Below are positions 7,872 to 18,032 of a stretch of 64,000 bases of DNA, one piece after another (within the stretch, counting starts at the first letter, position 1; each line of letters starts with the position of its first letter). The notes beneath the pieces were generated by a model. The model was not told the DNA's origin, did no database searches, and worked only from the letters and a program-made list of their open reading frames with translations. The DNA is from Rufibacter glacialis. GTDB taxonomy: Bacteria; Bacteroidota; Bacteroidia; Cytophagales; Hymenobacteraceae. A program made the translations under genes and the position numbers. Location: NCBI RefSeq assembly GCF_008271745.1, contig NZ_VKKZ01000020.1, forward strand, positions 248,001 to 312,000. The letters run 5' to 3'.

Positions 7872-8609
7872 ATGGAAAGTACTGTAGCAAGTAAGTTAGA
7901 TGCACTTCTAAGACTTCAGAGCTTAGATTCTCAATTAGACCAAATTCTACAAGTTAGAGGCGACCTACCGGAAGAGGTTCGTGACCTGGAAGATGAGATT
8001 GCCGGCTACCAAGTACGCGTGAGCAAATTTGATGAGGAGATCGCTGAACTACAGCAGTCTATTGCCAGCCGCAAGCAGGCCATCAAAGACTCTGAGAAGC
8101 TGATCAAGAAATACGAAGAGCAACAGGAGAATGTGCGTAACAACCGCGAGTTTGACGCCATCACCAAAGAAGTGGAGCTGCAGAAACTGGAAATCCAGAT
8201 CAACGAGAAGAAAATCCGCGAGGCCAATTTTCAGATAGAGCAGAAAAACCAGGACATCCAGGAAACCAAGAACCGCCTGGAAGAGCGCCAAAAAGACCTC
8301 AACACCAAGAACAGTGAGTTGCAGGTGATGGTGAACGAAAGCGAAGCCGACGAGCGCAAGCTGAACGAGGAAAAGGAAGAAGCCATCACCCACATTGAGG
8401 AACGCCTTTTGTTCGCCTACAACCGGATCCGGAAAAACGTACGTAACGGCCTGGCCGTGGTAACGGTGAAGCGTGACGCCTGCGGCGGATGTTTCAACAC
8501 TGTTCCCCCGCAACGCCAGTCAGACATCGCCTCTAAGAAAAAGATCACCGTGTGCGAGCACTGCGGCCGTATCTTAGCCGATGTTGAGCAAAAAGTAATA
8601 ACCCAATAG
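7872..8609 (+). CDS. Coiled-coil protein with C4-type zinc ribbon
   Basis: A 245-residue protein. Residues 30-175 are an almost unbroken coiled coil rich in Glu, Lys, Gln and Leu. The C-terminus carries two CxxC knuckles (CGGC near 200 and CEHCGRIL near 225) that would bind one zinc ion. This matches the DUF164/CT398-like family, which has been proposed to be a nucleic-acid- or secretion-associated adaptor, though its role is unproven. It is translated from the same message as the Nif3-like gene (6-base gap), and a hairpin terminator follows at 8631. Confidence 0.88.
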   Translation: MESTVASKLDALLRLQSLDSQLDQILQVRGDLPEEVRDLEDEIAGYQVRVSKFDEEIAELQQSIASRKQAIKDSEKLIKKYEEQQENVRNNREFDAITKEVELQKLEIQINEKKIREANFQIEQKNQDIQETKNRLEERQKDLNTKNSELQVMVNESEADERKLNEEKEEAITHIEERLLFAYNRIRKNVRNGLAVVTVKRDACGGCFNTVPPQRQSDIASKKKITVCEHCGRILADVEQKVITQ

Positions 8610-11815: not shown

Positions 11816-13090
11816 ATGCGTGATATTGAAATACAGTCGGTGAAGCAGCGGTTCGGCATCATCGGGAATTCCCCTTTGCTGAACTACGCCATTCAGGTGG
11901 CCGTGCAAGTGGCTCCCACGGATATGACCGTCCTGATCAACGGGGAAAGCGGAAGCGGGAAAGAATCCTTTTCCAAGATCATCCACCACCTGAGCCCCCG
12001 CAAACACGGCCAGTTTATTGCCATCAACTGCGGCGCCATCCCTGAGGGCACCATTGACTCAGAATTGTTCGGGCATGAGAAGGGTTCCTTCACCGGGGCG
12101 CAGGAAGCCCGCAAAGGCTATTTTGAGGTCACCAACGGCGGTACCATCTTTCTGGATGAGATTGGGGAGATGCCCCTGGGCACCCAGGCCCGGCTCCTGC
12201 GGGTGCTGGAAAACGGGGAGTTCATCAAGGTAGGTTCTTCTAAAGTGCAGAAGACCGATGTGCGCGTGGTGGCCGCCACCAATGTGAATTTGATGCAGGC
12301 CGTGGAGCGCGGGAAGTTCCGTGAGGACCTGTATTACCGGTTGAACACTGTGCCCATCAGTGTGCCCCCTTTGCGGGAACGCGGAGAAGACACCCATTTG
12401 CTCTTCCGGAAGTTCGCCAGTGATTTCGCGGAAAGATACCACGTAAAGCCCATCACCCTCACCTCAGAAGCGGTGCAGGAACTGCTGCGGTACCGGTTCC
12501 CGGGCAACATCCGGCAGTTGAAGAACATCGTGGAGCAGATCTCGGTGCTGGAATACGACCGCGAGATCAGCGCTACCACCTTGCGTAAGTACCTTCCGCA
12601 GGAACAGCAAAACCAATTGCCGGCACTGTTCCACCAGCACGGGCAGGCCGAAGGCGGCAACGGCATTTCTGAACGTGACCTGCTCTACAAGGTCTTGTTT
12701 GACATGCGCAAAGACATGAATGACCTGAAGCAGGTCGTCTTTGATTTGTTGTCGCACCAGCCAGCTGACACGGAACTTCTCAAAAACAACCGGCATTTGT
12801 TTGAAGAGGTGCAGCCGTTTGAAAAACCACCCGTGTACCGCTCCCCTGAACGCCGGGATGGCTACATGCTGGCCGTAGACGAACCCGACGAGGAATACGA
12901 GGAGAAGGTGGAGGACATTTCGCATGAAACCGAGGAGGAAAGCCTTTCTCTGGAGCACAAGGAAAAGGAAATGATCCTGAAAGCGTTAAAGAAGCACGGG
13001 AACAAACGCAAATACGCCGCCAAAGACCTGGGCATCTCAGAACGCACCCTTTACCGCAAATTAAAACAATACGACCTTGAAGACCTATAA
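11816..13090 (+). CDS. Sigma-54-dependent transcriptional activator (AAA+ plus Fis-type HTH, no receiver domain)
   Basis: A 424-residue enhancer-binding protein that opens RNA polymerase-sigma-54 promoters by ATP hydrolysis. Only about 20 residues precede the AAA+ domain, so there is no response-regulator or GAF sensor. Walker A is GESGSGKE near residue 45. The sigma-54-contacting loop is GSFTGA near 88, a variant of GAFTGA. Walker B is GGTIFLDEIGEM near 110. A long Glu-rich linker precedes a C-terminal Fis-type helix-turn-helix (KYAAKDLGISERTLYRKLKQ). The last bases overlap lptE. I infer groESL as one target (see the promoter at 15964). Confidence 0.93.
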   Translation: MRDIEIQSVKQRFGIIGNSPLLNYAIQVAVQVAPTDMTVLINGESGSGKESFSKIIHHLSPRKHGQFIAINCGAIPEGTIDSELFGHEKGSFTGAQEARKGYFEVTNGGTIFLDEIGEMPLGTQARLLRVLENGEFIKVGSSKVQKTDVRVVAATNVNLMQAVERGKFREDLYYRLNTVPISVPPLRERGEDTHLLFRKFASDFAERYHVKPITLTSEAVQELLRYRFPGNIRQLKNIVEQISVLEYDREISATTLRKYLPQEQQNQLPALFHQHGQAEGGNGISERDLLYKVLFDMRKDMNDLKQVVFDLLSHQPADTELLKNNRHLFEEVQPFEKPPVYRSPERRDGYMLAVDEPDEEYEEKVEDISHETEEESLSLEHKEKEMILKALKKHGNKRKYAAKDLGISERTLYRKLKQYDLEDL

Positions 13091-15737: not shown

Positions 15738-15767
15738 TAAAAGCCGATACAGACAACCCTTTGTTGG

Positions 15768-15800
15768 AGTCCGGGCCTTAAGTGGCCCGGACTTTTTTTT
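15768..15800 (+). terminator. Intrinsic terminator of secG
   Basis: AGTCCGGGCC and GGCCCGGACT arms around TTAAGT, followed by eight Ts. Confidence 0.9.
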
Positions 15801-15849
15801 GCCCCGTTCCCTGGCGGTTTTGCCAAAAGAAGGCTCTAAACGCACATTT

Positions 15850-15900
15850 TGACAGTTTCTGAACTGACAAAATTAAAGCCGTCCTGACCATCCGTGTCAG
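15850..15900 (+). promoter_or_regulatory. Cluster of TGACA/CTGAC repeats, candidate activator-binding sites
   Basis: TTGACAG (15849-15855), CTGACA (15864-15869), and CTGAC-N7-GTCAG (15884-15900, an exact inverted repeat). The cluster lies 65-115 bases upstream of the -24 element, the usual distance for enhancer sites of sigma-54 activators. Confidence 0.5.
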
Positions 15901-15963
15901 GGAAAACACAGGGTTTTCCTTGTTCTGAGGGTGGAAAGCGGCAAGTTTGGCAGGAAACGGGAG

Positions 15964-15980
15964 TTGGCACAAGAATCGCT
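15964..15980 (+). promoter_or_regulatory. Sigma-54 (-24/-12) promoter upstream of groES
   Basis: TTGGCAC (15964-15970) and TCGCT (15976-15980). The invariant GG (15966-15967) and GC (15978-15979) are separated by exactly 10 bases, as sigma-54 requires. One mismatch (TCGCT for TTGCT) lies in the -12 box. No TAnnTTTG box is evident nearby. Confidence 0.6.
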
Positions 15981-16053
15981 AATAGGGATACCAACCCCGG
16001 TAGGCTTGCTGCCGGGCATTATCGTTAACTTAATCTAATTTTATAACAACCCT

Positions 16054-16344
16054 ATGGCCTTAGATCTAAAACCATTGGCAGACAGAGTAATCGTGTTACC
16101 TGCTGCGGCTGAAGAAAAAACCAAATCTGGTATCATCATTCCGGACACTGCCAAAGAAAAACCACAACGCGGCGAAGTAGTTGCCGTTGGAGAAGGAAAA
16201 ATCTCCGATCAAGGTGTTTTAGTAAAGTCACAGTTGAAAGTTGGCGATCAAGTGCTGTATGGCAAATATGCCGGCACAGAGATCTCGTTAGATGGCGCTG
16301 ACTACCTGATCATGCGGGAGTCTGACATCCTGGCGGTTCTTTAA
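16054..16344 (+). CDS. groES: Co-chaperonin GroES
   Basis: A 96-residue GroES, the heptameric lid of the GroEL folding chamber. It opens with [20 protein letters not shown] and has the mobile-loop region [19 protein letters not shown] near residues 23-41, then a C-terminal [13 protein letters not shown]. The length and start are as expected. groEL follows after 44 bases, giving the standard bicistronic operon. Control by a sigma-54 promoter upstream is inferred. Confidence 0.97.
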
Positions 16345-16388: not shown

Positions 16389-18032
16389 ATGGCATCTAAA
16401 AACATCACTTTCGACGTAGAAGCGCGCAATAAGATCAAAAAAGGCGTGGACACACTGGCGAACGCCGTGAAAGTAACTTTAGGCCCAAAAGGCCGCAACG
16501 TAATCATCGACAAGAAATTCGGTGCTCCTAGCATCACCAAAGACGGTGTTACCGTTGCCAAAGAAATTGAACTGAAAGACGCCGTGGAAAACATGGGCGC
16601 TCAGTTAGTGAAAGAAGTAGCTTCCAAAACCGCTGACATGGCTGGTGACGGTACTACCACTGCCACCGTTTTGGCCCAAGCTATTTACACAGCCGGTTCT
16701 AAAAACGTAGCGGCCGGTGCCAACCCAATGGACCTGAAGCGCGGTATTGACAAAGCCGTTTCTAAAGTAGTGGCTAACCTGAAGGAGCAGTCTAAGAAGA
16801 TCGAGAACTCTTCTGAGATCGCCCAGGTAGGTACTATCTCTGCCAACAACGACAGCGAAATTGGGCAGATGATCGCCGATGCCATGGACAAAGTGGGCAA
16901 AGACGGTGTGATCACGGTAGAAGAAGCCAAAGGTACAGAGACCGAGGTGAAAACCGTAGAAGGTATGCAGTTTGACCGCGGTTACCTGTCTCCTTACTTC
17001 GTGACCAACCCAGAGAAAATGGAAGCTGAGTTTGAGAACGCTTACATTTTGATCTACGATAAGAAAGTTTCTACCATGAAAGAATTGCTTCCGGTATTGG
17101 AGCAAGTGGTACAAACTGGCAAAGCCTTGGTGATCATCTCTGAAGACGTAGACGGCGAAGCCCTTGCTACCCTGGTAGTAAACAAACTGCGTGGATCCTT
17201 GAAAATCGCGGCGGTGAAAGCCCCAGGTTTCGGTGACCGCCGTAAAGCCATGTTGGAAGACATCGCTATCCTGACGGGTGGTACGGTGATCTCTGAAGAG
17301 CGTGGTTACAAACTGGACAACGCTACTCTTGAGTACTTAGGTCAGGCGGAACGCATCATCATTGACAAAGACAATACTACTATTGTGAATGGTCGTGGTG
17401 AGAAAGACGGTATCACTGCCCGCGTGAACGAGATCAAGTCTCAGATAGAGAAAACTACCTCTGACTATGACAGAGAGAAACTGCAAGAGCGTTTGGCTAA
17501 ATTATCTGGCGGGGTTGCTATCCTTTACATTGGTGCCTCTACTGAGGTAGAAATGAAAGAGAAGAAAGACCGCGTAGATGATGCCTTGCACGCAACCAGA
17601 GCTGCCGTAGAAGAAGGTATTGTAGCTGGTGGTGGTGTGGCCTTGATCAGAGCTATTGATGCCCTGAACGATGTTGAGACCCGCAACGAAGACGAGAAAA
17701 CCGGGGTGCAGATCATCCGCACGGCGCTGGAGTCTCCTCTGAGAACCATTGTGGCCAACGCCGGTGGCGAAGGTTCAGTGATTGTAAATGAAGTACGTGC
17801 CGGTAAAGCCGACTTCGGTTACAACGCCCGCGACGACAAGTTTGAGAACATGTTCGCCGCTGGTATCATTGACCCAACCAAAGTAACCCGTCTGGCCCTG
17901 GAGAACGCTGCCTCTGTAGCCTCTCTGTTGCTGACCACAGAATGTGTGATCGCTGACGAGCCTGAAGAAGGTGGCGCCGGTGCCGGTGGCGGAATGCCAG
18001 GCGGTATGGGCGGCATGGGTGGCATGATGTAA
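16389..18032 (+). CDS. groEL: Chaperonin GroEL
   Basis: A 547-residue 60-kDa chaperonin that folds proteins in an ATP-driven double ring in the cytoplasm. Diagnostic segments are [18 protein letters not shown], the nucleotide-binding [15 protein letters not shown] near residue 85, the apical [20 protein letters not shown], and [10 protein letters not shown] near 455. The C-terminus is the flexible [14 protein letters not shown] tail. Codon use is strongly biased, as expected for a highly expressed gene. A rho-independent terminator follows at once. Confidence 0.98.

Follow-up and report, generated by a model that had tools for sequence, protein, structure and literature searches.

The stretch of DNA analysed here (the window) comprises 64,000 nucleotides of the 5.3-Mb genome of Rufibacter glacialis. 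A series of features on its + strand runs from the gene for a candidate sigma-54 activator through lptE, a gene for a 538-aa protein with no Pfam match, secG and a terminator-like hairpin to groES and groEL. The features of the locus, with their conservation in 16 genomes of the genus where this was determined, are as follows.

11816..13090, + strand: candidate activator, with an AAA+ sigma-54 interaction domain from residue 15, the loop GSFTGA, a Fis-type HTH at residues 379-419 and no receiver
15766..15795, + strand: terminator-like hairpin 3' of secG, which separates secG from groES
15864..15869, + strand: CTGACA, outer half of a conserved pair; CTG[AC]CA lies at -101/-102 from TGGCA in 15/16 genus genomes
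15884..15900, + strand: CTGAC-N7-GTCAG, left half not conserved
15895..15900, + strand: TGTCAG, inner half of the conserved pair; TG[TG]CAG lies at -69 to -71 in 16/16 genus genomes
15948..15953, + strand: TGGCAG, promoter-proximal, 17 bp before TGGCA in 16/16 genus genomes
15964..15981, + strand: sigma-54-type promoter TTGGCACAAGAATCGCTA, with the -24 GG at 15966-15967 and the -12 GC at 15978-15979
15991, + strand: predicted transcription start, 12 nt past the -12 C, placed by spacing
15996..16016, + strand: hairpin in the predicted groES leader, conserved in part only
16054..16344, + strand: groES
16389..18032, + strand: groEL, recognized from its translation; adjoins groES in 45/80 loci (tblastn)

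Some observations concern the groES leader and coding region themselves. The predicted leader hairpin (15996-16016) is GC-rich, with a folding energy of -15.1 kcal/mol (z -1.87), and only parts of it are kept in the genus. Three Rfam matches were obtained, all sub-threshold, and were taken as chance. Six of the 16 genus genomes have a 95-aa form of groES, which is 66-69% identical overall to that of the window, strongly divergent over the first two thirds and near-identical over the last ~30 residues. It sits behind the same promoter architecture as the window groES, and its coding part appears to be a mosaic replacement.

A first-pass annotation of this DNA had described a TTGGCAC-N5-TCGCT element with GG and GC 10 bases apart upstream of groES. 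The element is there: TTGGCACAAGAATCGCT occupies positions 15964-15980 of the + strand, occurs once in the window, has the GG-N10-GC arrangement and begins 90 nt 5' of groES. Set against the TGGCAC-N5-TTGC context of sigma-54 promoters, it has the 10-bp spacing and a single mismatch, in the -12 box (TCGC). Intergenic shuffles equalled its sigma-54 score in 14/2000 cases on the + strand and in 34/2000 on either strand, and eight other places in the 64-kb window score at least as high. Evidence from the window alone is thus moderate; the case is much stronger because the promoter is conserved in the genus and in the class.

Lack of conservation of the GG-N10-GC pair in relatives had been named beforehand as a result that would speak against this promoter. 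The pair is kept, with GC at -13/-12, in 16/16 genus genomes, and at the 18 promoter bases a mean of 0.91 of these genomes share the letter of the window, versus 0.43 for the rest of 15830-16019. In the 76 groES regions first fetched, TGGCAH-N7-G was found no more than 200 nt from the start in 76/76 (first-order Markov control: mean 2.4, maximum 7), and when the last TGGCAH was picked without requiring the G, position +13 was still G in 75/76; these are counts over related regions and hence non-independent events, the set including the genome studied here, two regions with identical upstream letters, apparently from one species, and many close relatives. The mismatch in the -12 box had been raised as a caution. 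It is real. When the 76 regions are aligned on TGGCAH-N7-G, the -13 G is fixed by the search pattern itself, and the next position holds A in 53%, C in 32%, T in 16% and G in none, percentages that include one row aligned on the wrong site of its two. A base other than C stands at -12 in 68% of the regions, and this points to a -12 box that may be loose in these organisms.

A second sample consisted of 80 genomes hand-picked for spread over families and for HrcA status; groES was found in 79, giving 84 regions. In class Bacteroidia, TGGCAH-N7-G was present in 31/36 regions, corresponding to 31/35 genomes, and the count restricted to 30-160 nt was likewise 31/36 (control: mean 1.1, maximum 4). 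The four class genomes of 35 that lack the strict pattern all belong to family f5, and in two of them GG-N10-GC is retained while the -24 box differs at one position, as judged by eye. Outside the class, HrcA-bearing genomes had the strict pattern in 2/28 regions, both ~185 nt away, and in 0/28 at 30-160 nt; regions from genomes with no HrcA match had it in 5/20 (f13, 3/3; f52, 1/1; and one far site in f24). A relaxed pattern was matched by 15/20 of the regions outside the class without HrcA (control: mean 0.5, maximum 3) versus 1/28 of the HrcA-bearing ones. Family f24, which lies outside the class, has its own version, TGG[CT]AC-N6-TGC, at 30-160 nt before groES in 10/12 regions (control: mean 0.03, maximum 1), a pattern that is descriptive, having been written after three of the twelve regions were inspected, and that is met by only 1/36 class regions. 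Family f39 has neither CIRCE nor a sigma-54-type pattern before groES, and in family f21 a -24-like box is present but the -13 G is not. One f21 region (L215, outside the class, no HrcA match) contains TTTGGCACG, again without a -13 G at the usual spacing.

The absence of HrcA and CIRCE, also claimed in the first-pass annotation, holds: HrcA has no match in this genome, and no CIRCE element (TTAGCACTC-N9-GAGTGCTAA, up to 3 mismatches) occurs in the window; neither component of HrcA/CIRCE control was found for groESL here. HrcA was found in 220/392 genomes drawn from the phylum, all of them outside the class; the 105 class genomes within this draw gave 0 matches, and family f24 has no member among the 220 positives. 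CIRCE (at least 15 of 18 bases) was found in 0/36 class groES regions. Outside the class it precedes groES in 24/24 sampled HrcA-bearing genomes, that is, in 24/28 regions, the other four being second copies, and in 1/20 regions from genomes without an HrcA match, that one from a 220-contig draft. Fisher tests gave p ~1e-10 and ~1e-13, values that are too small given the kinship of the genomes. Within the sample the split is clean: CIRCE accompanies HrcA, and promoters of sigma-54 type occur where HrcA was not found, in the class itself and in three or more families outside it.

The genome has one copy of RpoN (E 3.7e-56), which carries ARRTVAKYR, and RpoN was detected in 388/392 phylum genomes. 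The four genomes without it were considered as natural knock-outs and set aside: all have strong sigma-54 activator hits, three are HrcA-positive, and the missing RpoN looks like the result of assembly gaps. In one of these four (G512), groES is preceded by no CIRCE and by no match to the strict promoter pattern.

Five proteins of this genome are strong matches to PF00158, and only the one encoded at 11816-13090 lacks a receiver. Three of the other four have Pfam receivers, and the fourth (L115) starts like a receiver, as judged by eye. The G-x-FTGA loop is kept only by the 11816-13090 protein and by L112, which has GAFTGA and no Pfam HTH match. L113, L115 and L116, all encoded outside the window, have the altered sigma-54 contact loops GSFTSA, GAFTDA and GAFTDA, respectively; loops of this type would no longer work on sigma-54.

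The 11816-13090 protein has the parts of a sigma-54 activator, namely a PF00158 domain (E 2.5e-68) with the loop GSFTGA and a PF02954 helix-turn-helix at 379-419, and it has no Pfam receiver match. It is 92% identical to its counterpart in Rufibacter immobilis and 72-75% identical to those of Hymenobacter. Among 110 activator proteins (that of the window included, one other dropped), the loop reads GSFTGA in 50 and GAFTGA in 50, and 10 have neither. Orthologs were found in 35/35 class genomes of the second sample (E <= 1e-123), in 29/35 as a single alignment extending at least to residue 420; in three of the orthologs listed, the aligned part contains one in-frame stop. Outside the class, stretches reaching at least residue 420 were found in 19/21 genomes without HrcA and in 5/24 with it, which is an association of activator relatives with the absence of HrcA, not exclusivity. 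Of 80 activator loci, lptE is present in 70, secG in 53 and groES in 46, some loci being too short to show them. In the second sample the activator lies within 5 kb of groES in 16/35 class genomes and is unlinked in 19/35. The earlier proposal that a receiver-less activator controls the chaperonin thus stands as regards the gene, which exists, lacks a receiver, occurs in 35/35 class genomes and is often near groES; the control itself is inferred only. On these grounds the protein would be the best candidate for binding the sites upstream of groES.

A few kilobases before the activator, at 7872-8609, lies a gene for a zinc-ribbon protein (PF02591) of the FlgZ/HP0958 family, which in Helicobacter pylori protects RpoN (PMC3372290). 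A PF02591 protein was found in just 2/80 activator loci, with flanks of up to 6 kb.

The cluster of short sequences described earlier upstream of groES was found in its place, with CTGAC at 15864 and 15884, GTCAG at 15896 and TGACA at 15850 and 15865; three CTGAC/GTCAG sites were reached in 6/2000 intergenic shuffles. Conservation in the genus divides the cluster. The mean share of identical letters in the 16 genomes is 0.97 for CTGACA at 15864-15869, 0.98 for TGTCAG at 15895-15900 and 0.98 for TGGCAG at 15948-15953, a site that the earlier description had not included, and it falls to 0.16 for the CTGAC half at 15884 and 0.28 for 15848-15854, which holds the first TGACA. The CTGAC-N7-GTCAG palindrome is therefore private to this genome and has to be given up as a shared element. 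Some of the other proposed sites are likewise private; the motif is better written as CTGACA / TG[TG]CAG, and its sites are unevenly present over the class. The conserved outer pair, CTGACA-N25-TGTCAG, measures 31 bp from start to start in the window, and a further CTG[AC]CA lies at -36/-37 from TGGCA in 11/16 genus genomes. The distances between sites appear to be near whole helical turns, and the proximal site is nearer to the promoter than activator sites usually are.

Beyond the genus, TG[TG]CAG at -17 was found in 40/76 groES regions over the phylum, and TG[TGA]CAG at -18 to -16 in 50/76. The 36 class regions contain 59 TG[TG]CAG/CTG[AC]CA sites (control: mean 6.5, maximum 14), and the 28 regions of HrcA-bearing genomes contain 5 (control: 4.6). 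Forward TG[TG]CAG is absent from 12/36 class regions, in a further 4 its sole occurrence is at the start codon, and the class regions without it include genomes with an adjacent activator. Because the sites are so unevenly present over the class, our confidence in the combined statement and in its class-wide reading, both given below, is reduced.

The first-pass annotation had proposed scanning the genome for the same signals before other chaperone genes. dnaK matched: TTGGCACATGTCTTGTT lies 69 nt before it and is preceded by TGACATTGTGTCA, which, as judged from the sequence, makes it the same promoter type as before groES in this genome. There was no overall excess, though, as a scan with TTGGCAYRNNNNNYGHW gave 27 hits versus 23 in the reversed control; 7/27 hits fall outside ORFs of at least 100 aa, those of groES and dnaK included. 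A tight pattern, TGKCAG-N10-12-TGGCAYR-N6-G, found the groES region in 16/16 genus genomes and dnaK in three, and two of its hits in this genome lie inside ORFs. The arrangement with TG[TG]CAG before the -24 box of dnaK is thereby seen in three further genus genomes, cases that were found by the pattern itself and are not an unbiased sample. Two other TTGGCAY sites of this genome (L154 and L174, outside the window), neither of them within a long ORF, precede ORFs of unknown function by 69 nt and 41 nt.

Taken together, these comparisons make it very likely that groESL is under the control of sigma-54 and not of HrcA/CIRCE. The earlier claim of a sigma-54 promoter in place of CIRCE gains from the conservation of the promoter, from the CIRCE/sigma-54 split in the sampled phylum and from a published map of transcription starts in a related family. 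In the mechanism that we propose, sigma-54 RNA polymerase would transcribe groESL from 15964-15981, with a start near 15991, and would be held there in a closed complex, pending remodelling by an AAA+ activator. The likeliest activator is the receiver-less 11816-13090 protein, which would act as an oligomer on the CTGACA / TG[TG]CAG sites at ~15864-15953; as it has no receiver, its output probably depends on a partner or on its own level, in the manner of PspF. To the whole statement, a sigma-54 promoter together with a stand-alone activator acting on these sites, we give a probability of roughly 0.6, and activation of groESL by this protein through these sites is, taken by itself, likewise fairly probable. 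The pairing of activator and sites, like any control by stress, is inferred, and control of the activator by a partner protein, perhaps as chaperone feedback, is speculation. The wider reading, in which one receiver-less activator acting through CTGACA / TG[TG]CAG is the dedicated chaperone regulator of class Bacteroidia in the place of HrcA/CIRCE, activation through sigma-54 having replaced repression as HrcA was lost, has in our view slightly less than an even chance.

Other explanations would keep part of this scheme. The promoter may depend on sigma-54 and yet respond to one or more other activators, such as the receiver-bearing L112, the upstream sites then being those of that protein or of a separate regulator. 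L112 keeps GAFTGA, orthologs of the 11816-13090 protein are unlinked to groES in more than half of the class genomes (19/35), and distinct activators have been suggested for different sigma-54 clusters (PMC9723704); the class-wide presence of the stand-alone activator, its frequent adjacency to groES and the lack of a Pfam HTH match in L112 nevertheless make this explanation unlikely. Somewhat better placed, although still only tentative, is an arrangement in which a sigma-54 stress promoter is combined with a weak constitutive promoter elsewhere, such that loss of rpoN would lower groESL expression and not abolish it. The constant need for groES and groEL fits such an arrangement. Sigma-54 promoters are paired with other promoters on other operons, e.g. 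the remF-sprF operon (PMC9723704), and this offers a precedent; against it, the search of groES regions with the sigma-A pattern revealed no conserved second promoter.

That search bears more directly on the reading in which the housekeeping sigma factor (Bacteroidetes sigma-A, TTTG-N19-TAnnTTTG) drives groESL and the TGGCA elements are sites of a repressor or activator. Exact TTTG-N17-23-TAnnTTTG was found in 4/112 groES regions (control: mean 0.7, maximum 3) and matches with one mismatch in 17/112 (control: 11.1, maximum 18), a small signal in its favor, but the site is absent from nearly all groES regions, none is consistent, and no exact TAnnTTTG occurs in the 331 nt examined upstream of the window groES. 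The spacing from -24 to -13 is conserved over the class, and the published starts in a relative fit sigma-54 (PMC9723704). We regard transcription by sigma-A as highly improbable.

The promoter type is not new, as it is already known in a relative. In Flavobacterium psychrophilum, 5' ends mapped by RNA-seq revealed a motif, SM4, that was read there as sigma-54 and that precedes groES-groEL, lon, dnaK, grpE-dnaJ, htpG, skp and clpB (PMC9723704). The available part of that report mentions three PF00158 proteins and assigns none of them to promoters, and its main text has no match to the strings CTGAC or TGTCA. An in-silico survey of sigma-54 in Bacteroidota, published in 2025, found predicted promoters enriched on the GroEL, GroES, DnaK, DnaJ, GrpE and IbpA groups, and cites PMC2780778 for the sigma-54 dependence of GroES in Bacteroides thetaiotaomicron (PMC12316311). 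The survey differs from the present work in being prediction only and, in its available text, assigns no activator or site and draws no contrast with HrcA. The available text of PMC3162934 yielded nothing on groE or on Bacteroidetes, and in the open-licence literature we found no assignment of an activator or site to these promoters and no contrast with the loss of HrcA. What we suggest as new is the nearby activator candidate and its candidate binding sites. The control of folding machines in Bacteroidota is little known, and to it are added a named activator candidate, an architecture of sites with fixed spacing in one genus and the CIRCE/sigma-54 split; with these in hand, laboratory strains can readily be tested by gene removal and footprinting.

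The arrangement resembles known systems to different degrees. HrcA/CIRCE, as seen in other lineages of Bacteroidota, has the same target operon, groESL, but works through a repressor and an inverted repeat that were not found here. The candidate activator is like PspF-type activators in that its AAA+ part can be aligned with structures of PspF and of the NtrC family, it has no receiver and it carries a Fis-type HTH; it is unlike them in that a variable stretch of ~110 residues, which includes a conserved segment at ~286-305, separates AAA+ from HTH, and it falls below both PspF equivalog cut-offs (TIGR02974, 264.2 versus 443.55 bits; NF008622, 216.5 versus 529). A close counterpart is F. psychrophilum, of the same class, where groES-groEL and dnaK also stand behind -24/-12 promoters and where the locus tags (activator 0733, lptE 0732, groES 0729, groEL 0728) suggest the same neighbourhood (PMC9723704). 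It belongs to a different family from Rufibacter, a different motif, SM5, is given there for the activator-lptE unit, and its 5' ends were mapped, whereas the start given here is predicted (PMC9723704).
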